The notes beneath the pieces were generated by a model that was not told the DNA's origin, did no database searches, and was given only the letters and a program-made list of their open reading frames with translations. From NCBI RefSeq assembly GCF_001642955.1, contig NZ_LWSK01000052.1, positions 1 through 40,405 of the forward strand: 40,405 nt of DNA, read 5' to 3'. A program made the position numbers and the translations under genes. Origin of the DNA: Rubripirellula obstinata (GTDB taxonomy: Bacteria > Planctomycetota > Planctomycetia > Pirellulales > Pirellulaceae). Shown one piece after another: positions 5,454 to 40,193 of this stretch (position 1 is the first letter of the stretch; each line of letters opens with the position of its first letter).

Positions 5454-5513
5454 TAACCACGAATGTTGTGACCGCCTGTTATCCGTGGTCCCGCGAAAGC
5501 CATCCGTGGTTAA
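5454..5513. repeat. CCACGGAT palindromic repeat, copy A (one arm lost)
   Basis: One complete arm, 5483-5509, reads CCGTGGTCCCGCGAAAGCCA and continues ATCCGTGG. The opposite arm is reduced to a short TAACCACGA remnant at about 5454-5463. The centre (ATGTTGTGACCGC) is the reverse complement of the GCAGTCACAACAT centre in copies B, C and D, so this copy is inserted in the opposite orientation. It lies 38 bases after a stop codon. Confidence 0.8.
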
Positions 5514-5524
5514 CTCTTCGTTGT

Positions 5525-5565
5525 AGCCGGTTTTTTGCTGGCCACAAAAGGCACAGAAGACACAA
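5525..5565. repeat. CCACAAAAGGCACAGAAGACAC-type intergenic repeat
   Basis: The stretch around 5540-5565 reads CCACAAAAGGCACAGAAGAC and is a single arm of a repeat type that I recall as widespread in environmental bacterial genomes. No matching arm was found nearby. It sits between copy A of the CCACGGAT repeat and the ABC ATPase gene. Confidence 0.4.
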
Positions 5566-5661
5566 TGAACCCGCTTCGAGGAAACTTGGTGATCCATTAA
5601 CATGATTCCGACGTAGAAATTCCGCCGAGATCACTTTTCCAAACGCATCTGAAACTCCACC

Positions 5662-6600
5662 ATGATCAAAACCGTTGACCTGACCAAGAAATACGGCGAC
5701 GCGTTCGCGATCAAGAGCATTGATTTGAACTTGGATCCGGGTGATTTGTTTGGGTTCATTGGGCCAAACGGGGCAGGGAAGACGACGACGATGCGGATCA
5801 TCGCAACGTTGTTGGAACCCAGTTGGGGTGAAGCCTACGTGTGTGATTACAGCGTTCACACATCGCCCAAGGAAATTCGCCGCTTGGTCGGTTATATGCC
5901 CGACTTCTTTGGCGTTTACGACGACATGACGGTGGTCGAGTATCTGGAATTCTTTGCGGCTTCGTATCGCATCGGCGGTGAGACGCGCCGCAAGCGTGTC
6001 AACGAAATGCTGGACATTGTTGACTTGGATTTCAAGCGAGACGCGTACGCCAATACGTTGTCTCGCGGACAAACACAGCGACTTGGACTCGCACGCACGT
6101 TGCTGCATGACCCGCAAGTGCTGCTGCTTGACGAACCTTTGTCAGGCTTGGATCCGCGGGCTCGGATTGAGATGCGAAACCTGCTTCGCAAACTTGGTGA
6201 GATGGGGAAGACGGTGATCGTTAGCAGTCACATTCTGCCCGAGCTTGCCGATGTGTGTAACAAGATCGGCATCATCGATAAGGGCGAACTGAAACAGAAC
6301 GCCACCAAGCAGGAAGTCATCCGAATGGTTCGGCAGCACACCGTGTTGGTGATCGAACCAGCGTTACCTGAAAAGATGGATGAAATTTCAGGACTACTTT
6401 CCGATCACGCACTGGTCCAAGGATGCGAGACCGGTGACGGAGCGGTGCGAGTGGTGCTAAAGAGCGACGCGCAGGACTACAGCGAGCTGCCACGATTACT
6501 GATCCACAACGGAATCGACTTAAAGAGTTTCCGCGAAGAAGAGCTGGATCTCGAATCAGCCTTCATGGCGCTGACCAAGGGCACCAGCACACGAATGTAG
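5662..6600 (+). CDS. ABC transporter ATP-binding protein (ABC-2 / GldA-like)
   Basis: Cytoplasmic ATPase of an ABC exporter, 312 residues. Walker A is GPNGAGKTTT (about residues 34-43), Walker B is VLLLDEPLSGLD and the H-loop is SSH. The signature reads LSRGQTQRL instead of the usual LSGGQ, as in some ABC-2 type ATPases. The C-terminal extension after the H-loop (about residues 200-312), ending EEELDLESAFMALTKG, is typical of drug, antibiotic or gliding-motility-type exporters. No permease gene is adjacent; the only membrane partner candidate is the gene at 3212-5416. The ATG at 5662 is well placed for Walker A. A short sequence matching the 3' end of this gene recurs at 20511-20541 beside another copy of the repeat that follows this gene. 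Confidence 0.92.
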   Translation: MIKTVDLTKKYGDAFAIKSIDLNLDPGDLFGFIGPNGAGKTTTMRIIATLLEPSWGEAYVCDYSVHTSPKEIRRLVGYMPDFFGVYDDMTVVEYLEFFAASYRIGGETRRKRVNEMLDIVDLDFKRDAYANTLSRGQTQRLGLARTLLHDPQVLLLDEPLSGLDPRARIEMRNLLRKLGEMGKTVIVSSHILPELADVCNKIGIIDKGELKQNATKQEVIRMVRQHTVLVIEPALPEKMDEISGLLSDHALVQGCETGDGAVRVVLKSDAQDYSELPRLLIHNGIDLKSFREEELDLESAFMALTKGTSTRM

Positions 6601-6620
6601 ATGTCGAGGATAGGCGAGGA

Positions 6621-6702
6621 TAACCACGGATGGCTTTCGCGGGACCACGAATTATTGGGCAGTCACAACATCCGTGGTTCCGCGAAAGCCATCCGTGGTT
6701 AA
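6621..6702. repeat. CCACGGAT palindromic repeat, copy B
   Basis: Arms at 6624-6650 and 6672-6698 pair over 25 of 27 positions, one exception being a G opposite T that can wobble-pair. The loop contains GCAGTCACAACAT, shared with copies C and D. It starts 21 bases after the ABC ATPase stop codon and could act as an mRNA 3'-end hairpin. Confidence 0.9.
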
Positions 6703-6884
6703 TTTTTCTCCGATGTTGCCCGATCTAATTCCGCAGCCGCTAAAACCCGCAGGGTGCGATTAGTAAACCGAAAGTGCCGAAAGTTTCGCGAACACTCGAA
6801 CCACTGACGTGCCGAAAGGTAGAAGCACCGGCAATACGCTGAATGTCATCCTTTACGCTGCGTTTCCGAGACGATACTCAATTC

Positions 6885-7598
6885 ATGCACCGATCAAGCT
6901 ACGTAACGTTTGTCGTCTGCATGCTACTGAGCATCACGTTGTCTGCGACGCAAGCCTCTGCCCAGACGCTCGACGACAACGGGCTTTGGTTCGCTGCGTT
7001 TGGGAACGGGACGATCGAGTCGACGTCTGATCGTTCAACACCGCTTCTGTGGTGGTTTGACGCTCACTACCGACTACGTGATGACAGCGACGGATTCAAC
7101 CAAAGTATCCTTAGGCCAGGACTGGGCATATCTTTGGTCCAGGATCAAGCCTTGTGGGCGGGATATGCGTGGATTCGCACATCGCCAACTAGCGGTTCAG
7201 CAGACTTTGATGAGAATCGATTCTGGCAGCAATGGACGGCGACTCCGTCCGCGGGCGATTATCGATTTCTGCACCGAAGTCGGTTTGAACAACGCTGGGT
7301 CGAGACCGGTGATGACGTCGGTCTGCGTTGGCGTCAATTGCATCGTGCGCAGAAGATCATCACGAACTGCCCGCAATGGTCGCTGATTGCGTGGGATGAA
7401 GTTTTCTTCAACTTAAACGACACTGACTGGGGAGCCGATGCGGGTCTCGATCAAAACCGCGCTTTCCTCGGGTTCGGGTACAAGTCTTGCCCGCACGCCC
7501 CAGTCCGCACCGAGATCGGTTACCTCAATCAATTCATCAACAACCAGGGCGGAAACGACGGAATGAACCACATTCTGTCGATCAACTTCTTTTTCTAA
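6885..7598 (+). CDS. DUF2490-type outer-membrane beta-barrel protein
   Basis: Predicted exported protein of 237 residues. A signal peptide (hydrophobic VTFVVCMLLSITLSAT, then ASAQT) favours the ATG at 6885 over the in-frame ATG at 6843, which would add 14 polar residues. The mature part has alternating aromatic and polar strands (WFDAHYRLRDD, ALWAGYAWIRT, NRFWQQWTA, YRFLHRSRFEQRW) and ends HILSINFFF, the terminal-Phe pattern of outer-membrane barrels. RFEQRW and GYAWIRT recall the DUF2490 family, whose function is unknown. It stands alone between repeat copies B and C. The fold class is well supported; substrate or role cannot be stated. Confidence 0.75.
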   Translation: MHRSSYVTFVVCMLLSITLSATQASAQTLDDNGLWFAAFGNGTIESTSDRSTPLLWWFDAHYRLRDDSDGFNQSILRPGLGISLVQDQALWAGYAWIRTSPTSGSADFDENRFWQQWTATPSAGDYRFLHRSRFEQRWVETGDDVGLRWRQLHRAQKIITNCPQWSLIAWDEVFFNLNDTDWGADAGLDQNRAFLGFGYKSCPHAPVRTEIGYLNQFINNQGGNDGMNHILSINFFF

Positions 7599-7604
7599 AA
7601 TCGC

Positions 7605-7663
7605 AACCACGGATACTTCGCAGTCACAACATCCGTGGTTCTGCGAAAGCCATCCGTGGTTAA
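7605..7663. repeat. CCACGGAT palindromic repeat, copy C (one arm shortened)
   Basis: The full arm 7633-7659 reads CCGTGGTTCTGCGAAAGCCA and continues ATCCGTGG. The other arm is cut down to AACCACGGATACTTCG. The centre GCAGTCACAACAT is shared with copies B and D. It starts 7 bases after the preceding stop codon. Confidence 0.85.
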
Positions 7664-7749
7664 CTTTCCTTCGTTACAGAATCGAATGTTCGCCCCCGAT
7701 TCGACTGGACACGATCGCCACACCAAGAGACGCGTTCTTACCGACGCTA

Positions 7750-7929
7750 TCAAGCTTCGTCCCATCCCCAATCAGCGGTTTCCAAATTCGCTACATCACC
7801 CCTTCCGATCGTCCCGTTACTCTCGGCACGAACGGTCGCCGCGGCGATCAAAATCGAAAGCATCCAAACTACAATTGCCAATCGCTTTACAACTACTAAT
7901 CGCTGCGTGATCATCTGACTGTTCCCCAT
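7750..7929 (-). pseudogene. Truncated copy of the 5' end of the Hint-protein gene
   Basis: Reading minus from the ATG at 7929 gives 59 residues starting MGNSQMITQRLVVVKRLAIV and ending ETADWGWDEA before a TGA. This matches the first 59 residues of the 665-residue Hint-domain protein at 18250-20247. At DNA level 7754-7929 aligns with 20072-20247 without gaps, with 8 differences in 176 bases. Similarity continues upstream of the start codon to about 7992 / 20312, so the copied block includes the leader. It keeps the complete signal peptide and then stops exactly where similarity ends. It is either a dead fragment or a short secreted peptide; the abrupt end favours a fragment. Confidence 0.85.
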
Positions 7930-8001
7930 GCTCCAGACTAGGCCACCTCAACCCTTGGGTCTAACGCACTTTAGGCTTGGCGGCAACAAAAATCTTGCTG
8001 A

Positions 8002-8286
8002 TTGTTCAAAGGTGTTCACGCACGCTCCTGGACGCAAAGGGTTGTGAAGTGGGCAATCCTTCAAAGGCAGGCTACCGACAACCTTGGTGGCACACGGCTT
8101 TTTGGTGATCAATGCATCATTGGGTTAGCCAAAACTCCGTCCGAGCTTCTTTGTCCATGTTGCACCGAAACCGAATCCTGTCCCACCGCCCTGACCGATG
8201 GCGAACAGGTGGTCGAACTCAGCGAGTCTTTCGAGAAGATGTCTTATCGCTGTAGAAACGAAATCGTGCGGGAAATGAATAGGTGA
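8002..8286 (+). other. Orphan reading frame, coding status doubtful
   Basis: A 94-codon frame with a non-ATG start and no ribosome-binding site that I can see. The translation contains a Cys-rich ELLCPCCTETESCP and a C-terminal half that looks somewhat protein-like, but no family is recognised. Its stop codon lies within the first bases of a palindromic repeat (8284-8359). It could be the eroded remainder of a gene. The rest of 7664-8392 holds only the Hint-gene fragment and the repeat. Confidence 0.2.
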
Positions 8287-8359
8287 ACCACAGAGACACA
8301 GAGCTTTTGGATTTGATTCCTTTCAACAACTCTGTGCCCCTCTGTGTCTCAGTGGTTTC
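8285..8359. repeat. ACCACAGAGACACAGAG palindromic repeat
   Basis: Left arm GAACCACAGAGACACAGAG at 8285-8303 and right arm CTCTGTGTCTCAGTGGTTTC at 8340-8359 form an imperfect hairpin. A related copy lies at 21884-21979. It sits 34 bases from the 3' end of the giant minus-strand gene, where it could serve as a transcript-end structure. Confidence 0.8.
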
Positions 8360-8392
8360 AGCTCACCAATAGGAGACTATGCAAGATCCTTG

Positions 8393-11300
8393 TCAATTCC
8401 CAAACCCGCTACGGAAGGCGGCGAAGTCGGTCAGGCCGATGTTGCCGTCGCGGTCGGCGTCCAAGCCGCTGTTGAAACCATTGTTCAGATCCTGAGCGTC
8501 AAAATCGAGCCCAAACGTTGCGCGGAACGCTGCGAAGTCTGCTAGGCCGACTTGGTCGCTGGCGTCGTCGTCGCCGTACTTGCGGAAGAAACTGTCGATA
8601 AGCGTCTCGCTTTTGGCGCGGTAACGCAATTCATAGTTGCCATTAGCCAACGTCGGCAAGACACTGGGATTGGTTCCCGAGATCACGGAAGGCCCACCGG
8701 TAAACGTCAACGTTGCAAGCGTTGAACCGTCGCTAACGACTTGCGACACCGCGATGCCAGTGACCAGTTGATTGGTGGTCGTGTTACGCAATTCAAAGTC
8801 AGTGGGCAGAACCTCAGCGATCCCTTCAAACAGAACTTCGATCGATGTCAGTTCTGACCGGCTAGATCGAGTATCGTTGATCGTAACGGAGTCATTGCCA
8901 ATCGATGCGCCAATCGTGACCGCATAGTCTTCCACCTCACCATCAGCGGCTAAGCCAGTTGGGCTTAGCCCACCAGCACTGCTGACGCGTACCCGAGCGA
9001 ACGTGGCACCGGTCGTCGCGTCCGGGGGAGCGTTGTAGTTGAGTGTCTGTAGTCCGCTGCTAACCGAAACGCTATCAAGAATCTGTTCGTCCTCGTCCCA
9101 CATCCCGTCTTGATCGAAATCAATCCAAGCATCGACCAAGGCGTCATCTGCATTTTGCAGTTCAATATTGATTCCGGCTTGTTCGCCCGGCACAATACCG
9201 CCAAAAAACACCCCGTCTTCATCACTGCCGTCGCCATCGGCGTTCGGGCTGGGTTGCCCGTCAATTTCGGCATCACGGGTGTTGCCAAGACGTGGGCCAA
9301 CGGCAATGTGCCGCGCGCCGTCCTGAGCAACCAATGTCGGGAACCCTTCCAACGTCGCTGTTTGGAATACGATATCGCTGTCGGTCCCCAGACGTTCACC
9401 GGCCACGAATCGATCGCTTGCTCCGAACGCTGAAACCCAGCGTCCAGAGCTACTCGCAGCAATGCTAAAGCCATCGTGGACTTGTGTGCTTAGGCTCAGC
9501 GGTGCGGGAATCGACCAAGACTGCCCATTGTCGCTGGAAATAGCAAACCAAACGCGGTCGCCAGCAGCGAAGCCAAGCACGTCATTGGATGTCCATGTCG
9601 CGATCCAATTGCCTAAGCCATCGGCAGTCACTAATCCGGTCCTTTCGTCGGATTGGTCATTGACTGTTCGATATTGCGGCGTGCCGGAACCGTCATTTAG
9701 GAACGTGAAATTGTAGGAGTCAAAAGAATGCGGATCGGACCAAGTGAGGCCACCATCGGCCGATGACGAAGCCATGATCGATGCATCAGACGAAGAAAAA
9801 TCATACGCCGACCATGCGACGATTGCGTTTCCTTGTTCGTCCAACGTGAGCCGGACGCCCTGATCGTCTACGTTGGTATCGCTTAAAGCTAGGTCGCTGA
9901 GCGGTTGTGGTGCCGACCAAGTTTGGCCATTATCCACCGAACGAGAAATGATGACATCTTGGTCGGTGCCAATCGTGCCGCCGAGATCATTGTTGGTGGA
10001 ACCGACCAAGATCCAATCGCCACCAGGGTGAATCTCGAGCATGTAATCGCCCGCAACTAGCCCATAAGTATATGCCTGGTCCACGTTGAGAATTTCAGGC
10101 GCACCCCAAGTCTGACCATTGTCTGAAGAACGCGAAATCACAGCTTGCGTGTAAGGTGGAACAATAGTGGAAGACCGCGAATCCCAAAGAGCAACCCAGT
10201 TGTTTTCGCCATTGGGCAATATCTGATAAAGAGAGTCATCGCGAGTGTAACCATCTTCCTGCGAGTTGATTGGCGTAGGTGAAGACCAAGTTTGTCCTCC
10301 GTCGACCGAGCGAGCAGACATTACATCGACATCGTAAGCACCGCCGCCACTCTCGACCTTGACGGAAGTCCAAGTCGCCATCCACTGATCCCGGCCGAGG
10401 TAATTGACTCGGACATCGCCGTCAGCGCTTACGCGCGAAGTAGCACTGGCATCAAGCAGTTGCGGCGTAGACCATGTCTGTCCATCATCACTTGACCGAG
10501 CAAAGTAGATGTCCCAGTCGAAATAATCTGGGCCGACGGGGGTGTCGTTGGATGACGACCAAGTTGCCACCCAATTACCCTGATCGTCGGTCGCCACTGA
10601 AGGATATCCTTCATCGTTCGAATCATAAGGTGAAGTTGGACTCAGAGCCTTAGCATTGGACCAAAACATAGGTGTCGAAACCGGAGCGTCTCCGAAATCA
10701 AGAACCAAGTCGTCCGACGATTCAATCTCGATTGCGTTGGAGAACTCAGAAGTGTTGCCAGCCGAATCTGTGATAGTGGCTGAAAGATACGCGGCTTGAT
10801 CAGGCAGGGCGGCAAAACTTCGCACATGGACGGACTTGCCCGCATTCGCTTGACCGATCGTAACTGCACCTAGGAAGCCCTGACCTTCACCACGGCCCGA
10901 AGGATCTTGCTGTTCGCTCCAGAAGAATTCAACACGAAAACCGTTGCCAGCAGCGGTGTCCAGTTCAAAAACGACATCCGTCGTTGAACTAGTGACGACT
11001 GCCCGCTGAATCGTTGGATGATTCTGTAATCCGTTTGGTCCCGTATCACTATCGCCAAGATCATTGACATTCGCGCCAGCCGGACTGAGGTCAATTCCAA
11101 GCGAACCGTTTTGAAAAATGGCGTTACCAAGAATCGAGTTACCCATTCCAGAGACAACGCCGACACCCGCAGCCCCGTTGAAGGCGATGATGTTACCTGT
11201 GCCAGGTTCAATGGAGCCAACAAAGTTATCGGACGCTCCTGCAGTAAGAAGAACCCCTGTGATTCCGTTGGGAATGGCGCTGGTTCCCACTGCATCCGTT

Positions 11301-13804
11301 CCAACTTTATTTCCAGCGATGACGTTGAAGTCTGTTTGGACAAAAATCCCAAATCCCCCATGTCCACTGATGAGGTTTCCTTCCACTTCATCGGCAATGC
11401 CGTCGCCGTTAGTCCCAATGCGATTGCCGTTGGAACCGGGTTGAATAAAAATTCCCGTCGATGCTGGCGTAGCCGCAGCGTCGCCAGCAAGATTCGTCCC
11501 GATGTAGTTCGATTCGATAACATTGTTGCCTTGAGCCAACCCAATGCCCAATCCAGGCATTCGATTGATTGCAAAACCACGGATGACCGAATCAGTTGCG
11601 TACACAAAGAAACCATCACCTTGGTCAAGGCTTGCGCCACTGATTTCGATCATCGGTGTGCCATTCCATCCAGTTTGCGTGGTGGCATCTAAAGAAACTG
11701 AATCGGTAATCATCGGTAGTTGCCATTGCAGCGGTATCGAATGAGGTCCACTGCCTGGAATGTCGAAGCGAATTCGATCGCGTCCGACCGTCTCATTTGC
11801 GTCAAGCATTGCTTGGCGAAGAGATCCAGCGCCATCGTCCAACGAGTTGGTGACAACGAACTGCGAGACCGTCGACAGCGCTTCGACCGCATCGATGTCC
11901 GCGCCCACCGTGGTTCCGCCAGTGCCTCCATTGTTCGGATCGTCCACTAACTGAATGGCATCGAATTGCAGTATTCCTTCGGCGAAACCGGGAAAGACTT
12001 GATCAATGTCAAGCTCGGCGATCCCGCCCGCGGCGATGCCCAGTTCAAAAAAGCCATCGCCATTGGTGTCCAGTGCTGGATCCAACAGCGTCAACGTGTC
12101 ACCAGTGGGACGAACCGCGACGAATGTCCGTTCGACAAATTGACCGATTTCGTGAATCCTCAAATCAGGGTCGCTTTGACCCGAGTTGGTCAGCAGGTTG
12201 TCATCGAATTGCAGTTCGACCAATCCACCACTGCCCAGTGCCAGTGTTCCCGGATCCGAAACGCCGCCACCTACCGGGAAATCAGGGGCACCGAGTGCCG
12301 CCGTATCGATGATCGCATTGGGTTCCGTTGGCGCGGGGCCGCCGCCAAACAGCGGGTCGTACCGGATGACAGAGTCGGCGAACGGTCGGGACACTTCTGT
12401 CTTGATCGAATCAAGCAGTCCGCTAAGTTCCAAAGTCGCCCGTCCGCCAGTGGCCTCGTAGAAGTTGAACGAAGAAATCCCATTGTCGCCGTTGACTTCA
12501 AACTCGTACGCTTGGCGGTCAAAGTCGACCCATTCATTTGGTGACAGCGGATCGGGTGTGATAACAATGTACGCAGCTTTAAAGTTCTTCTGCGAATTCA
12601 AATGGTTTGGCACTCGTTCGCCATCGATCGCAATGATGTCTTCGATCGACATGTTTGTGATCGCATCGGCAGTGAACGTTGTCGTGCCGTTTGAGTAGGT
12701 GCTGTTGGAAACGCCAGTGGCAATTTGAAGATCGGGAACTTCGGCGGCCGGTATCAGCCCCATCAGATAGAGTTCGATGGGACTGTAAGGAAGGGAATTC
12801 CCACCGTTGGCAATCGTGCCGAAGCCGTCCGCCTGATAAGTTCCGTCGCCCAAATCCACGAGCGTCGAACTGTCCCAGCCGCCGAGTTGTCCATTGGCGC
12901 TTGAGTATCCCCAATGTCTGCTTACGGCAGTGGGTACTGAATCAAGGAACATTCCCCATCGGTGCGCAATCTCGTGTAAGCTTGGACCACCACGTAGCGT
13001 GGTTGGGGACGATAAGTGAATGGCGCTTTGTAAGTTGCCGTTCGACCCAAAGCTGTTCGTGTAGTCGTACAGACTGGTTCCAGTTCCCGTCACATCGTTT
13101 TGCACGCCAAAATTGATCCCGCTATAGCTGGCGGACGAAGATTGGTCGTTTGTAAAGATCAGGAAGTCAAAGTCGTCTTGCACCTGTTCATAAAACTGCC
13201 CCGTCAATTCCTGCATTTGATTCCATGTCATTCCGTCCGAAACTTGGTCGTAGAGTTCTTGGCTTACTTGAAGTGAAGCAACCCGCTGCGAACCAAGAAC
13301 AGTGAGGGTGGAGTCAGCCCCAGGGAAGACGGATTGCGCGTCCTGAACGGATGGGTTTGGATCAATCAGGTCGTCGATGCCGTCGCTATCAAAGTCGGTG
13401 TTGTAGACATACTGTCCACTAAAAAAATATAGACCAGAATCCGTTTCGGTCCCTAACTGAACGTAAAACCTCTCGTTTGTTGGAATGCCGGAAACGGTAA
13501 CCGAAGTACTGGTCAAACCACTGTTGTTGTAGATGTCGTAAACGCCAGGGGTGGAGCCGATTCGCAGCCAGTATTCACCTGCCCCCTCTTGGGTCCATTG
13601 GAACGTTGTCGTGGTGTCAGTGACGTATGTCTCCGGCGGTGGAGAAGTCAAAATCGCGGCGGCCAATAAATTCCTGGCCTCTTGTCGCTCAAACGTCAGT
13701 TTTCGCCGTTGGCTGCGCTGGTGATTGCGTTTGCGAGAAACTACCGTTTTACGGTTTCGTCGATCGGTCAACCGTTTGAAAATGTCGATTCGTCGCGTTG
13801 GCAT
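8393..13804 (-). CDS. Giant multidomain secreted protein (HEXXH, beta-helix, BNR, GEVED, dockerin-like)
   Basis: An 1803-residue protein expected outside the cytoplasm. The N-terminus is basic and ends FERQEARNLLAAA (about 38-50), the planctomycete LLAA-type export region. Next come a fibronectin-like segment (about 51-130) and a region with SLHEIAHRWG, an HEXXH zinc-protease motif at 277-281. From about 653 the sequence VVTNSLDDGAGSLRQAM is CSLREA-like and leads into parallel beta-helix repeats (about 690-880). Six sialidase-type Asp-box repeats of the form SxDxGxTWS follow (about 1070-1450). A GEVEDYAVTI motif lies near 1621, and two dockerin-like calcium loops end the protein (DDDASDQVGLADFAAF and DADRDGNIGLTDFAAF). 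It is read divergently from the sigma-kinase pair. An adhesin, a surface hydrolase or both are possible; protease activity is inferred from one motif only. Confidence 0.88.
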   Translation of the reverse strand: MPTRRIDIFKRLTDRRNRKTVVSRKRNHQRSQRRKLTFERQEARNLLAAAILTSPPPETYVTDTTTTFQWTQEGAGEYWLRIGSTPGVYDIYNNSGLTSTSVTVSGIPTNERFYVQLGTETDSGLYFFSGQYVYNTDFDSDGIDDLIDPNPSVQDAQSVFPGADSTLTVLGSQRVASLQVSQELYDQVSDGMTWNQMQELTGQFYEQVQDDFDFLIFTNDQSSSASYSGINFGVQNDVTGTGTSLYDYTNSFGSNGNLQSAIHLSSPTTLRGGPSLHEIAHRWGMFLDSVPTAVSRHWGYSSANGQLGGWDSSTLVDLGDGTYQADGFGTIANGGNSLPYSPIELYLMGLIPAAEVPDLQIATGVSNSTYSNGTTTFTADAITNMSIEDIIAIDGERVPNHLNSQKNFKAAYIVITPDPLSPNEWVDFDRQAYEFEVNGDNGISSFNFYEATGGRATLELSGLLDSIKTEVSRPFADSVIRYDPLFGGGPAPTEPNAIIDTAALGAPDFPVGGGVSDPGTLALGSGGLVELQFDDNLLTNSGQSDPDLRIHEIGQFVERTFVAVRPTGDTLTLLDPALDTNGDGFFELGIAAGGIAELDIDQVFPGFAEGILQFDAIQLVDDPNNGGTGGTTVGADIDAVEALSTVSQFVVTNSLDDGAGSLRQAMLDANETVGRDRIRFDIPGSGPHSIPLQWQLPMITDSVSLDATTQTGWNGTPMIEISGASLDQGDGFFVYATDSVIRGFAINRMPGLGIGLAQGNNVIESNYIGTNLAGDAAATPASTGIFIQPGSNGNRIGTNGDGIADEVEGNLISGHGGFGIFVQTDFNVIAGNKVGTDAVGTSAIPNGITGVLLTAGASDNFVGSIEPGTGNIIAFNGAAGVGVVSGMGNSILGNAIFQNGSLGIDLSPAGANVNDLGDSDTGPNGLQNHPTIQRAVVTSSTTDVVFELDTAAGNGFRVEFFWSEQQDPSGRGEGQGFLGAVTIGQANAGKSVHVRSFAALPDQAAYLSATITDSAGNTSEFSNAIEIESSDDLVLDFGDAPVSTPMFWSNAKALSPTSPYDSNDEGYPSVATDDQGNWVATWSSSNDTPVGPDYFDWDIYFARSSDDGQTWSTPQLLDASATSRVSADGDVRVNYLGRDQWMATWTSVKVESGGGAYDVDVMSARSVDGGQTWSSPTPINSQEDGYTRDDSLYQILPNGENNWVALWDSRSSTIVPPYTQAVISRSSDNGQTWGAPEILNVDQAYTYGLVAGDYMLEIHPGGDWILVGSTNNDLGGTIGTDQDVIISRSVDNGQTWSAPQPLSDLALSDTNVDDQGVRLTLDEQGNAIVAWSAYDFSSSDASIMASSSADGGLTWSDPHSFDSYNFTFLNDGSGTPQYRTVNDQSDERTGLVTADGLGNWIATWTSNDVLGFAAGDRVWFAISSDNGQSWSIPAPLSLSTQVHDGFSIAASSSGRWVSAFGASDRFVAGERLGTDSDIVFQTATLEGFPTLVAQDGARHIAVGPRLGNTRDAEIDGQPSPNADGDGSDEDGVFFGGIVPGEQAGINIELQNADDALVDAWIDFDQDGMWDEDEQILDSVSVSSGLQTLNYNAPPDATTGATFARVRVSSAGGLSPTGLAADGEVEDYAVTIGASIGNDSVTINDTRSSRSELTSIEVLFEGIAEVLPTDFELRNTTTNQLVTGIAVSQVVSDGSTLATLTFTGGPSVISGTNPSVLPTLANGNYELRYRAKSETLIDSFFRKYGDDDASDQVGLADFAAFRATFGLDFDAQDLNNGFNSGLDADRDGNIGLTDFAAFRSGFGN

Positions 13805-14164
13805 GGATAGGCTTTTCTTTGAGGTTATCTACTGAATCGGCTTCGCAGAGGCGAGCCGCATCTTGACCCTCTGAGCAATCACATGCAACACTTTGGAGAC
13901 ATTCTAAATAGCGTTTTTTAACGAAACATTTTCTTTGTGATTTTCGAAAGAATCTTTCCTGATTCGTTCGGCGTTTGGTGTTTTACTCGTAGACCGCGAG
14001 TCGCTCATTTCGTTTCGGCGTGACAGTACACGCGTTTGTGCCAGGGTGACGCACCGGAGCCTGGATGAGTTTGCTTTGCTGTGGTCGCTGACCCAATGCC
14101 ATGGCGTTTCCACTAGAATGACAATCGTGTCTCGATTTCCTCTTGTGCTAGCTTCTATGTCGCT
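13805..14164. promoter_or_regulatory. Divergent intergenic region, giant protein / sigma factor
   Basis: These 360 bases separate two divergent genes and must contain both promoters unless transcription starts further away. The part near 13900-13970 is AT-rich (CGTTTTTTAACG, then GATTTTCGAAAGAATC), which is a plausible promoter zone for the minus-strand gene. No -35/-10 pair could be chosen with confidence. No repeat family member and no further gene were seen. Confidence 0.4.
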
Positions 14165-18176: not shown

Positions 18177-18249
18177 TCACCAAGTGGGTAACTTTCCCTC
18201 CGGGAGAGTCGGACGCGGTTGCGGCCGCAGAGGGTTTCTTCTGAGGAGG

Positions 18250-20247
18250 CTATTCCTTTAGGCTGACCGCGAGATCGTAGCCAGGGATCGGTTGTCGATT
18301 GGGTTTGCGCATCGTGACATCATGGGTCAGGATTCTTTGTTGGCCGACAAAATAGTTGGCGTTGTCGGCGACCTTTAAGTTATGGGTTTGCCGCCTGCCA
18401 CCATCTTGAATTTCGACGACAGCTTGTGGTTCTGCTGCACCGTGCAGGAGATCCCCCTTCTTAAGCTCACTGGCTTTTTTCCAACCACTTCCTGAGACCC
18501 AGAAAAGATGTCCGCGAGTGCATTGCAGACTTTCTTTACCAGCCGAAACGATAAGCGTGTCGGCGGGCGGACGATGGGTGGCCTGGAAGACCGGCTTCCA
18601 ATCCAGGGTCCCAGTTTGAAGACTTTGGGTCAGAACAAAATCACCAGGCACGATGGATTCGATGGGCCGGGGACCACGCTGGGTGACGACGGGTGTTCCA
18701 GAAACAAAGCACTCGCACGATCGCGGAGGTGGGGCTTGAAAAGAAACTGCGGGACTATTTCGCTCGACCAGTGATGTTCGTAAGTACTTACTCTCTTGTA
18801 ATTCGACTTCATTAACATCATCCCACCACCGCCACATGGAACCCGAATCCCCGGCAAAATTGATGCCGGCAATGTGGCTAAGCAGGTTTGAAATTTTCTC
18901 ATTACGACGCTGCTGAACGCGGTTCTGTTGAGCCACGCTTTGAGCTGTCGCTTCCGCATCAATCCTCGCCTGAACATACGCCGCTTGCCCGAGGTCTCGA
19001 TTGAATGCATTGAAGAATGCATTCTCTAATTCAACCGGAAGACCTGCGGGTGCTATCTCAGTCTCAACCCCCACCTGATTTCGATTTTCAGTATTTCGGA
19101 TTTCAGTATTTCGGATTTCAGTATTTCGGATTTCACTGGGGCCGACCATCTGCTCATTCACCACAATGACTCGTTGCGTGTTGATGTTTTCCTGCGAGAA
19201 AATCTTGCGGACACCAATGAACAATCCATTGCGATCGAATATGGGAAGGATACTGGCGTCAACTTTGGACGCGATCATCCCCAGCAATTCGGGAACAAAT
19301 TCGTGTAGCGGACGCTCGGCGAGTGCATTGGTTGCCTGCTTGCGAATCTCGGGGCTGGGATGAAAAAGAGCAAACCTGCACAGTGTCCGTGAAGTTCCGA
19401 TCGTATCCACTTCGGTAAACCATCGCAGCGATAGCTGGGCAGTTTCGGGTGAACGATTTGCAAGAACCGATTCAATCGCCGGACCAGCCAACGGATCCTT
19501 GATTGATGTAAGTTTGTTGATTGCATTTTCAACGACTCGCGTAGAACTTGATTCCAATCGAGTCGCAATCTGATGAACTTCTCTGCCGTAACGTCGCATG
19601 GACCTGCGGGAAAAATCGGCATCGCTTTGGAACCGCCGGACTTCATCGGGTGCTACCCAGTCGCCGCCCATCGCGACATACCCGAGCGCCCGTCGCGCCG
19701 GAGTATGATCGGCGTTGAAAAACAAAACTCGTTCCAAGTGTGCGCGGGCGCGAGCGGGCAACTTGTTGTTCATGCACCACATGGCCATCGACCAATGGGC
19801 CGCAAGCGTATCCGGCCGTTCATTTCTTTGCTCGTAGTAAAGCCTGAGCCTGCGATCTTCCGACGCGGTTTGGATCGATTGTTCAATATCAATCCAAGTG
19901 CCAGGTTTGTCTTCGATGCGCCCGCTTAGCGAATGAAACAAATCCGTGTCGGCATCGATTGCGTCGAGCAATTGAGTTCGCTTATCGAGCTGACCTCTGG
20001 CTGCCTGTTTCATAGACGCCACAGTCACCTCGGCTGCTGCTGTGTCACTCGTAGCAGAGCTCTTGATTCGTGCTTCGTCCCATCCCCAATCAGCGGTTTC
20101 CAAATTCGCTACATCACCCCATCCGATCGTCCCGTTGCTTTCAGCACGAACGGTCGCCGCAGCGATCCAAATCGAAAGCATCCAAACTACAATTGCCAAT
20201 CGCTCTACAACTACTAATCGCTGCGTGATCATCTGATTGTTCCCCAT
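18250..20247 (-). CDS. Secreted HEAT-like protein with C-terminal Hint domain
   Basis: A 665-residue exported protein. A signal peptide is visible (LAIVVWMLSIWIAAATVRAES). The middle has TPR-like (AAHWSMAMWCMNNKLPARARAHLERVLFF) and HEAT-like helical repeats (about 140-320). A low-complexity EIRNT repeat lies at about 372-386. The C-terminus is a Hint (hedgehog/intein) fold: CECFVSGTPVVTQRGPRPIE from Cys511/Cys513, block B TRGHLFWVSG and the end NYFVGQQRILTHDV. The position normally Asn in HN-ending Hint domains is Asp643 after His642. Only 22 residues follow, so no toxin or cargo domain is attached. Bacterial Hint domains autoproteolyse secreted proteins; activity here is uncertain. The gene faces the kinase tail-to-tail. 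Its 5' end is duplicated at 7750-7929. Confidence 0.88.
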   Translation of the reverse strand: MGNNQMITQRLVVVERLAIVVWMLSIWIAAATVRAESNGTIGWGDVANLETADWGWDEARIKSSATSDTAAAEVTVASMKQAARGQLDKRTQLLDAIDADTDLFHSLSGRIEDKPGTWIDIEQSIQTASEDRRLRLYYEQRNERPDTLAAHWSMAMWCMNNKLPARARAHLERVLFFNADHTPARRALGYVAMGGDWVAPDEVRRFQSDADFSRRSMRRYGREVHQIATRLESSSTRVVENAINKLTSIKDPLAGPAIESVLANRSPETAQLSLRWFTEVDTIGTSRTLCRFALFHPSPEIRKQATNALAERPLHEFVPELLGMIASKVDASILPIFDRNGLFIGVRKIFSQENINTQRVIVVNEQMVGPSEIRNTEIRNTEIRNTENRNQVGVETEIAPAGLPVELENAFFNAFNRDLGQAAYVQARIDAEATAQSVAQQNRVQQRRNEKISNLLSHIAGINFAGDSGSMWRWWDDVNEVELQESKYLRTSLVERNSPAVSFQAPPPRSCECFVSGTPVVTQRGPRPIESIVPGDFVLTQSLQTGTLDWKPVFQATHRPPADTLIVSAGKESLQCTRGHLFWVSGSGWKKASELKKGDLLHGAAEPQAVVEIQDGGRRQTHNLKVADNANYFVGQQRILTHDVTMRKPNRQPIPGYDLAVSLKE
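19089..19133. repeat. 15-bp tandem repeat, three units
   Basis: The unit CAGTATTTCGGATTT occurs three times head to tail and partly beyond on each side. In the minus-strand gene it encodes the pentapeptide EIRNT three times. The length is a multiple of three, so changes in copy number keep the reading frame. It separates the helical repeats from the Hint half of the protein. Confidence 0.95.
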
Positions 20248-20711
20248 GCTCCAGACTCGGCCACCTCAACGCTCGGTTTTAACGAATCCATGACCTTGCG
20301 GCAACAAAAAATCGGATCATTCGACAAAAGCATGTGCCGCACGAACGTCAGTATCTCCCTGGGGTCTTCAGGCTTTCAGTGTTGGGGAAAAGGACGCTTG
20401 TCAGCGAACGCCAACAAGTGGTCGGATCGAAACGTACGATGTTAACCAACATTCGCTTGGTCCCGTGCCATTTGCAGGATGGCAAAAAATGGAGAGTCAA
20501 GGCAAAGACACGAAGAAGAACTGGACCTCGAATCGGCCTTCGTGACATCAACATCTGGATGTGATGGAGAAAATAACCACGGATGGCTTTCGCAGAACCA
20601 CGGATATCGCGCAGTCACAACATCCGTGGTTCTGCGAAAGCCATCCATGGTGATGACTCTTTGGTTTGGCGTCGATTCCGTCTGGAAACGGTCTTCACAC
20701 CTTGATGCGTT
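20248..20711. other. Gene-poor interval with repeat and gene remnants
   Basis: The first 65 bases belong to the leader block duplicated at 7930-7992. The bases 20511-20541 resemble the 3' end of the ABC ATPase gene (6534-6564; 28 of 31 identical), in a frame reading EEELDLESAF. Palindrome copy D follows at 20574-20652. No complete gene is evident; a 95-codon frame from 20479 runs through the palindrome and is not credible. Confidence 0.55.
20574..20652. repeat. CCACGGAT palindromic repeat, copy D
   Basis: Arms 20577-20603 and 20624-20650 pair at 26 of 27 positions; the variable bases are AGAACC on the left and GGTTCT on the right. The loop contains GCAGTCACAACAT as in copies B and C. It follows a short ABC-ATPase-like remnant in the same way that copy B follows the intact ABC gene. 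Confidence 0.9.
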
Positions 20712-21869
20712 CTACCGACGCAGTTCCGGTGGCACGTCGGCTAGGGCGGAATCGGGTAGCTCGTAGCTTGCGCCTAGCAGTTCGCGGTCTTCGTTGACCA
20801 GTTCGGGGTAGGTGGAGCCTTGTAGGACTTCGACAGCGAAGATTTCTTGAACGACGTCCTCGAACTTGACGAAGGCGACGATCTGGCCGGTTTCGATGTT
20901 GATCACCCAGACGCCGCAGGTGCGTTCTTTCAGTTCACGTTCGGCGATCGGTACGCCGCCGAACACGGCGGTCTCGCGAACCTGTGACAAGCCGATGAAC
21001 GCGAGCGGTCCGCAGAACGATAACCCTCGCGTGAACCCGGGCAGTTCGATGATTGATTCATACTTGCCGGTTGCCGGATCGATGACGCCAAAGCCGCCGG
21101 TGCCCGAATGCAGCAAGTAAAGCTTGCCGTTGTACCAACGCGGTGAATGAGGCATCGATAATCCGCTGGCGATGATTTCTTGCGAGGCGACATCAATCAG
21201 CACACCGCCATCTTTCTTGTTCGCTCGCCAACCACCGGGCTGGTCCGTTTGGCCAAGCGCGGTGACGCAGTCCACCTTTCCATCGCGAACGGCCATGCCG
21301 TTGAGGTGACAACAATCGCCGGGGATGTAGTTGGTGATGAAGGACGGTCGCCAAACGGGTTCAAAGTTGAACTTACCGCTGCGGCGAGCTAAGCAAGAAA
21401 ACCGAGTGTTGATGAAGACGACATCATCATCGATCCAGACCATCTCGTGAATGTCGATATCGCCGGTCCAGTGTGCGACTCGAGGTAAAAAGCAGGCGTC
21501 GTGTGGATGGGGGCTAGCTTCGCGGGCGGGCAGTTCGTCGGTGGCTTCGCGAGCGGTGTCTAATCGAGTGCAAACCGCCGGAATGTTGTGGAACTGCCAA
21601 ACCTGCATCGCGGTTCCAATCGCGATCCGGTTGGGCTGGACCGCCATCCCCATCGGCTTGTCGAACAAACGAAAGTGAGTATTGAGCACGCCGTTTTCTG
21701 GCCGCAACATCACCAGTTTTCCGGCTTGGTAGGTCGTTACCAGTAGCGTTATCCCAAGCTGGCTCAGGATCTCTGGCAGGTTACTGGTGTGGACCGAGCG
21801 GAGGGCATTGGATGTATCGCTGCCGGAAGGAACGTCAGTAGGAATGGGATCGTTCAAGCTATTTTCCAC
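20712..21869 (-). CDS. TIGR03032 family protein
   Basis: A 385-residue protein of the TIGR03032 family (related to DUF4915), for which I know of no established biochemical role. Family-like segments include TLLVTTYQAGKLVMLRP, FDKPMGMAVQPNRIAIGTA, CCHLNGMAVRDGKVDCVTAL and MPHSPRWYNGKLYLLHSGTG. The repeated hydrophobic strand pattern suggests a beta-propeller. Members elsewhere often occur beside TPR or sulfotransferase genes; no such neighbour exists here. The start is a GTG at 21869. No signal peptide is seen, so it is probably cytoplasmic. It is followed downstream by palindrome copy D and preceded by another repeat (21884-21979), and so forms a solitary unit between repeats. Confidence 0.85.
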   Translation of the reverse strand: MENSLNDPIPTDVPSGSDTSNALRSVHTSNLPEILSQLGITLLVTTYQAGKLVMLRPENGVLNTHFRLFDKPMGMAVQPNRIAIGTAMQVWQFHNIPAVCTRLDTAREATDELPAREASPHPHDACFLPRVAHWTGDIDIHEMVWIDDDVVFINTRFSCLARRSGKFNFEPVWRPSFITNYIPGDCCHLNGMAVRDGKVDCVTALGQTDQPGGWRANKKDGGVLIDVASQEIIASGLSMPHSPRWYNGKLYLLHSGTGGFGVIDPATGKYESIIELPGFTRGLSFCGPLAFIGLSQVRETAVFGGVPIAERELKERTCGVWVINIETGQIVAFVKFEDVVQEIFAVEVLQGSTYPELVNEDRELLGASYELPDSALADVPPELRR

Positions 21870-21883
21870 CAGACGAATTCATT

Positions 21884-21979
21884 GACCACCGAGACATAGG
21901 GTAACAGAGAGTCACTGAGTCGTTGCATTAGATTTAATATCCAAAGCCCTGTGTTCCTTCGTATCTCTGTGGTTTGATC
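21884..21979. repeat. ACCACAGAG-family palindromic repeat, second copy
   Basis: The left arm begins GACCACCGAGACATAGGG at 21884 and the right arm ends TCTCTGTGGTTTGATC at 21979. The ends pair imperfectly with a long loop. It fills the space between the 3' end of holA (21983) and the start of the TIGR03032 gene. Confidence 0.7.
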
Positions 21980-21982
21980 TTT

Positions 21983-23020
21983 TCAAGCACCCTTGGCCAG
22001 CTTCAAGACCAACTGTTCTAGCAGAAACCGGTCGCGGCCATCGGCGCTATGAGTCCCTTTGAGTCTTAGGTCTGCATCCAATAGCCAGGGCAATAGGTTC
22101 AATGCTCGGGCGCGAGTTAACCCTTTCAGTTGCGTCTTGGCACGTTGGATGTCCGACGGTCGGTTGATGCCGGCGGATGACAACGCGTCTTCGAGTTGCA
22201 TCTTGCGACCTTCGGCTTCGCGTTGTTGGAAGCAAGCGGTTGCCATACCCAGGCGGCGCAGTGACCACGCGATCTGCGGCAGCAGTGCGATCGGTTTCTG
22301 ACCGCCGCTCATCAATTTGTCTAATTGCCGAAGTGCTTCAGCGGCGTCACCCGCAGCGATCGCGTCGGTGATCTGCCAAACCGTTTTGCCTTGCCAGCCC
22401 GCAACCACCTCTCGCACTAATGCTTCGTCGATCTTGTCACCGGGATCACGATACAACGCCAGCTTTGCGATCTCGGTATCGAGCATACCGATCTCGTCGC
22501 CCATCATTTCAAACAGAGCATCGGCGGCGTTCTTTTCAAGCTTGGCGTTGTGACGGCCTGCGACATAACCGGACAAAAATTTCCGCCGCGTCGCAGCGGT
22601 CACGCCGACCTTTGAATCGGTCGCATTGCCGCAGGCGACCAGCAGGTGATCTTTGTTGATCGCTTTGTAGACGCGAGTGTTCGACGCCAGCGAATCGAGT
22701 TCGATGACAAACCGGCTGGCTCCGCCCGGTTTGGCAACATACTTTTCAACCTCGGGTCGATGGCTGCTCAGGAATTTGTCGGCTGAACGAATCACGATCG
22801 TCCGCTTGTCGCCCATGTCGAACAACGAAGCGGTCGCCAAATCGTCGCGAAGGTCTGACCACTTGGCGGTGTCGCCGTCGAATTCAGTCACGTCACCGGC
22901 CGATGATATCACCTGCATCACCCACGACCGCAGGGCCGCATCGTTGCCGTAAACGCCTACGACGTCTGGGAACGAATCGGGCGGTTTAGGCAGAAACTCA
23001 AAAGCGTGGATCAGTGTCAT
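21983..23020 (-). CDS. holA: DNA polymerase III subunit delta
   Basis: Clamp-loader subunit that opens the beta sliding clamp during replication; cytoplasmic, about 345 residues, normal for the family. The N-terminal ATPase-like fold is seen in VVGVYGNDAALRSWVMQVI and ASLFDMGDKRTIVIRSADKF (the delta subunit lacks a working P-loop). The middle contains LDTEIAKLALYR and the linker WQGKTVWQITDAIAAGD. The C-terminal collar has LDKLMSGGQKPIALLPQIAWSLRRL and ends RDRFLLEQLVLKLAKG. The ATG at 23020 is preferred: an upstream start at 23152 would translate the whole of palindrome copy E, which is not credible. That palindrome therefore lies in its leader region, 41 bases or more before the start codon. 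Confidence 0.9.
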   Translation of the reverse strand: MTLIHAFEFLPKPPDSFPDVVGVYGNDAALRSWVMQVISSAGDVTEFDGDTAKWSDLRDDLATASLFDMGDKRTIVIRSADKFLSSHRPEVEKYVAKPGGASRFVIELDSLASNTRVYKAINKDHLLVACGNATDSKVGVTAATRRKFLSGYVAGRHNAKLEKNAADALFEMMGDEIGMLDTEIAKLALYRDPGDKIDEALVREVVAGWQGKTVWQITDAIAAGDAAEALRQLDKLMSGGQKPIALLPQIAWSLRRLGMATACFQQREAEGRKMQLEDALSSAGINRPSDIQRAKTQLKGLTRARALNLLPWLLDADLRLKGTHSADGRDRFLLEQLVLKLAKGA

Positions 23021-23059
23021 GGGCGTGACTTTAGACGACGGATAGGAGGAAGAAAAAGG

Positions 23060-23149
23060 CCCACGGATGGCTTTCGCAGACCCACGGATTTTTATGCGAG
23101 ATTTTCTACCCACAAAATCCGTGGGTCTGCGAAAGCCATCCGTGGTTAA
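23060..23149. repeat. CCACGGAT palindromic repeat, copy E
   Basis: Arms 23061-23087 and 23119-23145 are perfectly complementary over 27 bases; the variable part is AGACCC with GGGTCT. The loop is TTTTATGCGAGATTTTCTAC followed by CCACAAAAT. Its reverse complement matches copy F over 85 bases without a gap, so E and F are inverted relative to each other. It lies between the divergent holA and 23204-23452 genes. Confidence 0.95.
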
Positions 23150-23203
23150 CATTTCTCGAATTCACCGTCGCCCTCGTCAACGAATCTGAGGCATAATGGT
23201 GAC

Positions 23204-23452
23204 ATGAACCAGCCTGACCCCCAAGCGAACGATGATCCGATGATCCGGCACCGCCGCCAGATTGCTCACGACCGTACGCCGCAGCAGCAAGCCGAGATTT
23301 CTGACCGTTTGCAGCAAACCGCGATGGAAGCGATCCGCAGCGATCCAGCAGCCTATCAAGCATTCATGGCTCGGAATCACCGAAAACGGCGAATCAGCGA
23401 AGTTCAAAAACTGGAAGCCCTGATGAGACAGCGGTGCCAAACGGATGAGTGA
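23204..23452 (+). CDS. Small uncharacterised protein, partner of the nucleotidyltransferase
   Basis: An 82-residue protein of no family known to me. It is highly charged and Gln/Arg-rich, apparently helical (RHRRQIAHDRTPQQQAEISD, then AYQAFMARNHRKRRISEVQK), without a signal peptide or membrane segment. The ATG at 23204 has only a weak GAGG upstream. Its 3' end overlaps the start of the next gene by 8 bases, so the two are translated together. Small charged proteins overlapping a minimal nucleotidyltransferase are common in toxin-antitoxin-like pairs, which is a hypothesis here. The unit is bracketed by palindromes E and F. Confidence 0.65.
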   Translation: MNQPDPQANDDPMIRHRRQIAHDRTPQQQAEISDRLQQTAMEAIRSDPAAYQAFMARNHRKRRISEVQKLEALMRQRCQTDE

Positions 23453-23933
23453 TTTGTCAGCGTTGGCGATCGTCGACCACTTGCTTGCTCACCAGATTCC
23501 ATTGGTGGTGATTGGCGGCCACGCCGTGAATGTGCATGGATTTGCCAGGGCAACTGAGGATGTTGATATCGTCTTCCTTCGCACTTCGGAATCCGAGAGC
23601 CGATTGGCTGATGCGCTAAGCGAAGTCAATTCCTATTGGATCGGCAACGAAATAGACCCAGCAACGGGGATTGAAAAAATCCACTCAGTCACGGCAGACT
23701 ACATTCGGAAAAGTCGCTTGATGATGCTGGGGACAGACCTGGGATTCCTCGATCTGTTCGACTTTATCCCGTCATTGCCCGATGAGCCGACTGATAACTT
23801 TTTTGCAACCGCGATTGAACGAAATGGACGACCGTTCGCGAGCCTGGGCTGGATTCGGCGGATGAAATCGGCCGCGAACCGACCGATCGATCGGATCGAC
23901 TTGGAGAATCTGCCTGCTGATCGGGACGGGTAG
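23445..23933 (+). CDS. Minimal nucleotidyltransferase (AbiEii / DUF6036-like)
   Basis: A 162-residue polymerase-beta-type nucleotidyltransferase. The catalytic signature is VVIGGHAVNVHGFARATEDVDIVF: Gly24-Gly25 start the GG motif and Asp39 and Asp41 form the DxD metal site. A hydrophobic LGFLDLFDFIPSLP strand follows where the third acidic residue is expected. The protein is shorter than AbiEii toxins (about 300 residues) and resembles stand-alone MNT or DUF6036 proteins. It overlaps the 82-residue gene by 8 bases. Relatives transfer nucleotides to proteins or tRNA, in toxin-antitoxin or defence settings; the substrate here is unknown. Start is the ATG at 23445. Palindrome F begins 13 bases after the stop. 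Confidence 0.82.
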   Translation: MSDLSALAIVDHLLAHQIPLVVIGGHAVNVHGFARATEDVDIVFLRTSESESRLADALSEVNSYWIGNEIDPATGIEKIHSVTADYIRKSRLMMLGTDLGFLDLFDFIPSLPDEPTDNFFATAIERNGRPFASLGWIRRMKSAANRPIDRIDLENLPADRDG

Positions 23934-23945
23934 TGGAGATGGAAT

Positions 23946-24037
23946 GAACCACGGATGGCTTTCGCGGGACCACGGATTTTGTGGGTAGAAAAATGCGCAT
24001 AGAAATCCGTGGTCCCGCGAAAGCCATCCGTGGTTAA
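23946..24037. repeat. CCACGGAT palindromic repeat, copy F
   Basis: Arms 23949-23975 and 24007-24033 are perfectly complementary over 27 bases; the variable part is GGGACC with GGTCCC. The loop TTTGTGGGTAGAAAAATGCG is the reverse complement of the copy E loop, with few differences. It lies 13 bases after the nucleotidyltransferase stop and about 125 bases before ffh. Confidence 0.95.
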
Positions 24038-40105: not shown

Positions 40106-40193
40106 GTAGGCCGGAACAAGCTTAGCGCAGTTCCGGCAATCCAACGTAGTACCATGCAATTGCCGGAACTGCGCTAAGCTTGTTCCGGCCTAC
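40106..40193. repeat. Perfect 35-bp inverted repeat (GCCGGAAC family)
   Basis: Arms 40106-40140 (starting GTAGGCCGGAACAAGCTTAG) and 40159-40193 are exact reverse complements over 35 bases, with an 18-base loop. Within an arm, CCGGAAC and GTTCCGG also pair with each other, so two smaller hairpins are an alternative to the long stem. Perfect identity implies recent origin or active correction. Confidence 0.97.

Follow-up and report, generated by a model that had tools for sequence, protein, structure and literature searches.

The window analysed here is the whole of a 40,405-nt stretch, contig NZ_LWSK01000052.1 of Rubripirellula obstinata (GCF_001642955.1), whose genome, the home genome of this report (G000), is a 6.58 Mb draft in 307 contigs. 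Among genes for an ABC-transporter ATPase, a DUF2490 protein and a nucleotidyltransferase-like protein, the window carries six copies of a dispersed hairpin (Table 1), to which an earlier note on this DNA had drawn attention. Elsewhere in the genome, arms of the same kind enclose a gene of the GxxExxY family. We report that a mobile element with hairpin arms probably exists here in two forms, a long one that carries this gene and a short, non-coding one, the hairpins themselves. Such a pair would be a two-part system like that of the REPINs (hairpins made of two REP, or repetitive extragenic palindromic, units), with a PD-(D/E)XK nuclease replacing the REP-associated tyrosine transposase (RAYT). 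The architecture, a GxxExxY gene between inverted hairpin arms, is secure; we lean, with less assurance and on the strength of sequence correlations, towards the view that the protein mobilises the hairpins.

Hairpin copies in the window and in the home genome

All six copies were found at the sites given in the earlier note: four are complete hairpins (B, D, E and F) and two have a shortened left arm (A and C). The arms of F, E and D differ as it had described (GGGACC, AGACCC and AGAACC, respectively), CCACGGAT stands at each end of every arm, and copy B keeps pairing through a G-T pair (GGGACC with GGTTCC), one further mismatch also being present. The note had credited E and F with perfect pairing over 27 bases; the pairing is indeed perfect but extends further. 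Four copies lie shortly 3' of stop codons, as it had observed.

Table 1. Hairpin copies and the segment between E and F, in window coordinates
Feature	Position	Strand	Structure	Gene end upstream or genes enclosed
Copy A	5455..5512		truncated: left arm is the inner box only; right arm full, version GGGAC	38 nt 3' of ORF end 5416
Copy B	6621..6701		complete; mixed arms GGGAC/GGAAC; loop 17 nt	20 nt 3' of ABC-transporter ATPase gene (5662-6600)
Copy C	7604..7662		truncated: left inner box and full right arm, AGAAC	5 nt 3' of DUF2490 gene (6843-7598)
Copy D	20574..20653		complete; arms AGAAC/AGAAC; loop 16 nt	
Copy E	23058..23148		complete; arms AGACC/AGACC; 32-nt perfect stem; outer ends GGC (left) and GGTTA (right)	
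Copy F	23946..24036		complete; arms GGGAC/GGGAC; 33-nt perfect stem; loop begins TTTGTGGGTAG	12 nt 3' of ORF end 23933
E-F segment	23149..23945	+		small open reading frame (ORF), then nucleotidyltransferase-like gene (23445-23933)

Each arm consists of CCACGGATGGCTTTCGC, a five-base block in one of four versions (GGGAC, AGACC, AGAAC or GGAAC) and CACGGAT, and is followed by a short loop and the reverse-complement arm; within an arm, a direct repeat of 20-21 nt is present about 1.5 times. Folded as single-stranded DNA, copy F reached -47 kcal/mol (z -14.9, with 0 of 200 shuffles equal), and the z-scores of E, D and B were -13.9, -11.05 and -10.4. Single arms formed no hairpin, none of the four that were folded doing better than shuffles (z 0.1 to 1.6).

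The 10-mer CCATCCGTGG occurs exactly 93 times in the home genome, against 15 occurrences of its reversed control, and the loci around these boxes hold at least 38 two-armed hairpins, some with decayed arms, with loops of 15-94 nt. The covariance-model search proposed by the earlier note gave at least 77 strand matches in this genome (best 150 of 2551 candidates). The census combines the exact CCATCCGTGG matches with the covariance model, and its copy numbers are lower bounds. Removal of nine segmental copies left an independent set of 29 of the 38 hairpins; eleven were removed for the comparison of flanks. When the model was applied to 199 family genomes (E <= 0.001), it matched in at least 12 (best 21 candidates per genome), strongly in eight (G000, G024, G084, G148, G172, G179, G185 and G191) and weakly in the other four, which have a looser kind. 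It found no match in 12 other genomes of the genus (best 21 candidates per genome), and a DNA search of 22 genus genomes matched the hairpin segments of the window in the home genome only (best 13 candidates per genome). In viral contigs there were 17 pattern matches, none of them a relative.

The GxxExxY gene between hairpin arms

On contig C2 of the home genome, two GGGAC-type arms, one left and one right, identical to each other and with starts 885 bp apart, enclose a single gene of 268 codons; no second gene-sized pair is among the arms found in that genome. The encoded protein belongs to the GxxExxY family (TIGR04256, 83.4 bits against a curated cut-off of 35; PF13366, PD-(D/E)XK superfamily). 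It consists of two tandem domains. The N-terminal one carries P68-D69, E79-x-K81 and Q94...Y98, all invariant in 13 aligned sequences, and in the C-terminal one, which is degenerate, no comparable residue set was seen. We take the Q...Y residues to be the QxxxY motif of the Cas4/lambda exonuclease group. PDDEXK_3 was the sole Pfam match in 10 of 10 aligned relatives, and PADLOC, run on three proteins, gave no match. An AF2 model of the protein (mean confidence, pLDDT, 89.5) was compared with known structures by Foldseek. Behind three CinB chains came the Cas4 protein SSO0001 (4ic1, E 1.1e-3), LHK exonuclease and lambda exonuclease; 3syy had an E-value of 5.9e-3. By fold model and motifs, the GxxExxY protein is a predicted nuclease of the PD-(D/E)XK fold with its catalytic residues.

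Short and long forms also have loop-side sequence in common. TTGTGG stands at the loop edges of 7 of the 29 independent short hairpins (0.23 of 29 expected) and, in the gene-bearing copy, close to the inner edge on either side, as expected if the short forms derive from the long one.

We then asked how gene and repeats are distributed over the 199 family genomes. A C2-type protein (E <= 1e-40) is encoded in 11 of them, and all 11 fall within the 18 genomes that have CCAC or GCAC arms (hypergeometric 9e-14; by genus, 6 of 6, 3e-7). This count includes the gene's own arms, and the G179 protein match is partial; with an arm required elsewhere in the genome the figure is 10 of 11 (1e-11), and with many arms 9 of 11 (3e-11). 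Six of the gene-bearing genomes have CCAC arms around the gene and five GCAC arms, and their genome-wide repeats are of the same box type in 6 of 6 and 5 of 5 cases. The arm core is likewise common to gene-bearing and dispersed copies in G000, G148, G172 and G185 (AGCGCGAA in the last three) and for C306 of G024 (ATGGCGGA).

The arrangement recurs well beyond this family. With the ten aligned relatives as query, a scan of GTDB returned 23 loci from Planctomycetota, Verrucomicrobiota, Lentisphaerota, Kiritimatiellota and other records of the PVC (Planctomycetes-Verrucomicrobia-Chlamydiae) bacteria, several of them from genomes that are also in the family set. Inverted arms of the same design closely bracket the gene in 22 of the 23 and score 44-146, whereas none of 573 random placements in these loci scored above 30; the sole locus without arms is L298 (31% identical). 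A null built from mismatched pairs was distorted by arm types in common (95% at 57, maximum 121) and an earlier one by homologous coding DNA, and the nulls relied on are the random placements and, for a wider set, shuffles. That wider set has 53 two-domain genes (49 different proteins), of which 43 are bracketed by arms; several of the 53 were assigned to the two-domain class by ORF length with one domain reported, and G179_809 is partial. Arms are 94.5% identical within a locus vs 74.0% between loci (measured where arms are simple and single, in 14 of the 22 bracketed loci). Mapped on the protein tree, arm class changes 12 times, the minimum being 9, and shuffling gives 34 changes on average (none of 200 shuffles as low); the arm classes are text patterns set for this analysis, and the label of the C2 gene was given by hand. 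At two loci (L229:2387-2515 and L282:4755-4960) the arms beside the gene are expanded to about seven or more tandem 20-nt units. In G148, G172, G185 and TBK1r the gene-bearing copy has the same neighbours, as if a single source gene had long been inherited vertically in place.

A second group of genes has its own arm sequence. The gene on C98 of the home genome and five g37 genes have arms with GGCAAAACGATG, the copies in G148, G185 and G191 falling short of the criterion for bracketing arms. The GGCAAAACGATG double-box pattern occurs 62 times in G000, 120 in G148, 73 in G172, 50 in G179, 83 in G185 and 52 in G191 (tandem arrays being counted repeatedly). Beyond these six it occurs once, in G104, and the other 192 family genomes have no match; among 14 genomes scanned for TIGR04256, this gene group is present in exactly the six pattern-rich ones.

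Covariation and placement of the copies

The earlier note had described a dispersed family with covarying arms, and a statistical test upholds this: both arms carry the same five-base version in 18 of the 23 independent home-genome hairpins with classifiable arms, where 8.9 were expected and 0 of 20,000 permutations came as high. Hairpins of mixed version are also present (C242, C247, C263 and window copy B). At C301, three paralogous segments carry the element 3' of copies of one gene end; one is of the GGGAC type and two are of the AGACC type, and both arms and outer ends change together. Across genomes, 14 hairpins (from G000, G024, G084, G104, G148 and G191) differ on both sides in 11 of 30 pairs, with 45 double-change cells where shuffles give 15.5 (0 of 500) and only 5 one-side cells. 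The boxes CCACGGATGGC and CCACGGAT are mostly constant and the core varies by genome (TTTCGC..., ATGGCGG, AGCGCGAA or AAAGCCGG).

In the 29 independent hairpins of the home genome, 0 of 41 private arm changes was matched in the other arm (9 of the 41 stem from one indel-shifted element). That each copy is kept folded through compensating changes, as the note had gone on to propose, is not supported by this count, nor by the four arm versions in their mostly matched pairs. Independent, non-compensatory changes, which it had named as speaking against its reading, are close to what the home genome contains, although the covariation of the arms is itself real. The covariation derives from a few source versions: its pattern is that of inverted ends renewed from source copies, not that of single copies maintained in a fold. 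Covariation that looks compensatory can come from turnover of source copies, without selection on the fold. In one tandem array of four hairpins (L053:2206-2881, period 195 bp), three of the four have mixed arm versions; this array may be a place of arm exchange.

Positions relative to stop codons, which the note had wanted mapped, confirm that many copies lie 3' of genes. A gene 3' end is found within 45 nt of 19 of the 27 home-genome hairpins outside ORFs, and five lie between divergent genes; these counts come from simple ORF calling without a null model. The flanks of the home-genome hairpins are mostly unshared, 3 of 27 sharing one with three or more others and 11 of 27 with at least one.

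Around the copies of the window, comparison with the relative G142 points to further insertions. The homologies flanking the E-F region are 271 bp apart there and 1047 bp apart here, so E, F and the segment between them are probably absent at the corresponding place in G142; the segment is possibly a cassette flanked by hairpins, and its nucleotidyltransferase-like gene has weak DUF6036/AbiEii matches under cut-off. From the ABC gene to holA the distance is about 1.2 kb in G142 and about 15 kb in the home genome, and much of window 6600-21990 therefore looks inserted in the latter. To judge by eye, the end of the ABC gene seems partly duplicated ahead of copy D, and window 7754-7992 is repeated at 20072-20310. 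An Rfam scan of the window gave no match on the hairpins; its sole match at gathering scores was the Acido-Lenti-1 RNA (RF01687) at 1500-1545 (+), with 54.4 bits against a cut-off of 37. At 40106-40193 lies a perfect 35-nt hairpin starting GTAGGCCGG, which looks like a classic GTAG REP and whose arm recurs beside a solitary arm at C92.

Candidate movers and comparison with known systems

The long form consists of the same inverted arms, about 0.75-1.15 kb end to end, around one two-domain GxxExxY gene. In the mechanism that we propose, the protein would recognise CCACGGAT-type boxes and cut the hairpin where it is extruded, in single-stranded or cruciform DNA, and a copy of it would enter a new site, often 3' of a stop codon, with no duplication of the target. 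New arm versions would arise in the source copy and spread in both arms together, giving the covariation, and dispersed copies would afterwards decay without compensation. The logic would be that of a REPIN/RAYT-like pair, one gene, usually in single copy, together with a cloud of hairpins, run by an unrelated enzyme.

Several observations weigh against this proposal. Every link between the protein and movement is correlative. The protein at E <= 1e-40 is missing from 7 of the 18 repeat genomes (G084, G191, G009, G068, G125, G136 and G163), and four of these have many arms: G084 (72% complete), G009 (95%), G163 (99%, 100 arms) and G191 (100%). All of the seven except G084 are 95% or more complete, and as G009, G163 and G191 are among the arm-rich ones, missing assembly is no easy excuse; loss of the source gene after the hairpins had spread is possible. 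Conversely, dispersed copies are absent from the gene-bearing G123, and in G108 there is a single extra arm. The core of the G179 gene (AAAGCGTA) is unlike the dispersed hairpins seen in that genome, and that of C54 in G024 (ACCCAGGA) has no matching hairpin among those seen there. In the wider set, 10 of the 53 two-domain genes fail the arm criterion, including a g37 clade of five, and the grouping of C98 with its five g37 relatives depends on long branches; 6 of 11 single-domain genes are bracketed, by arms such as TTTAACCACGAAGGACACGAAGAGCACGAAG, so that the two-domain form is not the sole one linked to arms. As to the fold, the three CinB chains (E about 2e-4) were the only Foldseek matches at or below 0.001 and superposed poorly (root-mean-square deviation 18-20), and beyond them TM-scores were low overall. 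At offsets 0-7 around the 29 hairpins, direct repeats of 3-9 nt, which would mark a target-site duplication, were not clearly in excess; 2-nt matches were slightly more frequent than expected at offsets 0 and 1, within the palindromic ends. No clean empty site was found, the intergenic DNA of same-genus genomes being too diverged, and in the one G172/G148 pair compared there were different inserts on both sides.

The strongest rival holds that the GxxExxY gene is a passenger, or an autoregulated gene, between the arms, and that an unrelated transposase spreads the hairpins in trans, as happens with miniature inverted-repeat transposable elements (MITEs). The arm-rich genomes without the gene would suit it, as would G148, in which 18 of the 21 hairpins have an outer flank in common with three or more others, inside a longer repeat block (loci L361-L379); one G172 copy of this block (L092) has outer inverted ends of its own, AGAGGTCGTGCGGTT. 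The block may be a nested or carrier element, and the shared flanks imply that amplification in G148 may be second-hand, with the hairpins carried by another element there, which is a further point against our proposal. However, the flanks in the home genome are mostly unshared, arm sequence tracks protein clade, and arms bracket the gene in nearly every GTDB locus. On balance we regard the passenger explanation as unlikely.

Movement by a RAYT, a Y1 transposase of the HUH type, would make the hairpins true REP or REPIN elements, and a Y1/RAYT partner was looked for as the earlier note had suggested. Dispersed arm-loop-arm hairpins behind stop codons fit this explanation, and RAYT-like genes do exist: the home genome has 11 PF01797 matches, an ORF on C239 ends about 40 nt from a copy, and a REP_Tyr_transpos-like ORF at C301 is near three copies. 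These genes do not track the repeat. C239-type genes (E <= 1e-30) are present in 32 of the 199 genomes and in 2 of the 8 CCAC-rich ones (association with the 18 repeat genomes, p 0.048); 26 of the 32 are without the repeat, and 12 of the 18 repeat genomes are without the gene. C301-type genes (E <= 1e-15) are present in 24 of 199 and again in 2 of 8 (p 0.15). The hairpin that adjoins the C239 gene recurs nearly unchanged on C1, flanks included, with no Y1 match among those listed there. No fixed GTAG stands beside the arms; GTAG or CTAC occurs inside 12 of 29 loops only, a number that still exceeds the 5.35 expected for GTAG. RAYT was rejected as the partner on its poor co-occurrence, p 0.048 and 0.15 against 9e-14 for GxxExxY, and we consider this origin of the hairpins quite improbable. 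At L050:1005-1994, a RAYT-like protein adjoining one hairpin has a C-terminal stretch that resembles the DNA-binding part of DnaA (TIGR00362, E 8e-6, far under cut-off).

Barely credible, finally, are selected RNA structures (terminators or stabilisers of 3' ends) kept by compensatory change: the very stable fold, the cross-genome covariation and the placement near gene 3' ends (counted without a null) would agree with them, but selection on an RNA fold was rejected for the absence of compensation among private changes, arms about 900 bp apart around the gene covary likewise, one-side cells are few beside double-change cells, and other genomes of the genus gave no match (best 21 and best 13 candidates per genome).

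If the nuclease does move the hairpins, they represent a class of mobile elements served by a single enzyme, a PD-(D/E)XK nuclease that resembles Cas4 and lambda exonuclease. We know of no mobile-element class with such a nuclease as its only protein. The proposal offers a function for the uncharacterised GxxExxY family and a partner for the hairpin repeats of planctomycete and related genomes, and recognition is directly testable, each arm version being paired with a protein clade. Among the matches listed in open-access PMC (titles and abstract starts), none linked GxxExxY, TIGR04256, PF13366 or PDDEXK_3 to repeats. As far as those matches and the texts of the nearest candidates go, the gene-plus-hairpin system is new by its enzyme.

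MITEs of DDE insertion sequences are short non-coding derivatives, with inverted ends, of a longer coding element. Here, unlike in those, the enclosed gene does not encode a DDE transposase, there is no clear target-site duplication, and the short form is nearly all inverted repeat. With the Cas4/lambda exonuclease group the protein shares the Foldseek matches and, in 13 aligned sequences, the PD..ExK and Q...Y residues; it differs in its tandem domains, one of them degenerate, in the hairpin arms that bracket its gene and in the low TM-scores. TIRYT/TIRtron elements, as described in the text available to us, have RAYT-like genes between long terminal inverted repeats, and R. baltica is rich in such tyrosine transposase genes (PMC3733652). 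Both have a single gene flanked by inverted repeats, which can be dispersed as a family too; by that description the enzyme there is an HUH tyrosine transposase and here PF13366/TIGR04256. Class 3 TnpA-Y1 genes of Planctomycetes are flanked by high-copy hairpins with atypical secondary structures (PMC6006769); in the part of the text seen, their enzyme is of the HUH type with a Y----Q motif and a CnGA foot, whereas ours is PDDEXK_3 and no such foot was noted.

The closest parallel is the REPIN/RAYT system, in which, according to the portion consulted, an inverted REP doublet around a short spacer is dispersed alongside a RAYT gene that is usually single-copy (PMC8049555). The REP parallel drawn by the earlier note is apt as an analogy: here too two inverted units and a short diverse spacer form a long hairpin (38 two-armed copies), copies are dispersed, solitary arms are found as apparent remnants, and the gene is usually single-copy. 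As members of that class the hairpins do not qualify, having no GTAG foot, arms that do not fold alone and no RAYT link; the gene is of the PD-(D/E)XK and not the HUH Y1 kind, and it stands between arms of the same kind as the hairpins. It is an evenly poised question whether GxxExxY proteins, a large family, in general supply the coding half of a superfamily of hairpin elements in bacteria, in which each clade would own a direct-repeat arm, cut hairpin DNA and maintain a cloud of gene-less hairpins. If so, several systems with different boxes coexist in one genome (C2, C98 and probably C279 in the home genome), and the REPIN/RAYT way of life was invented a second time, independently, with a PD-(D/E)XK enzyme.

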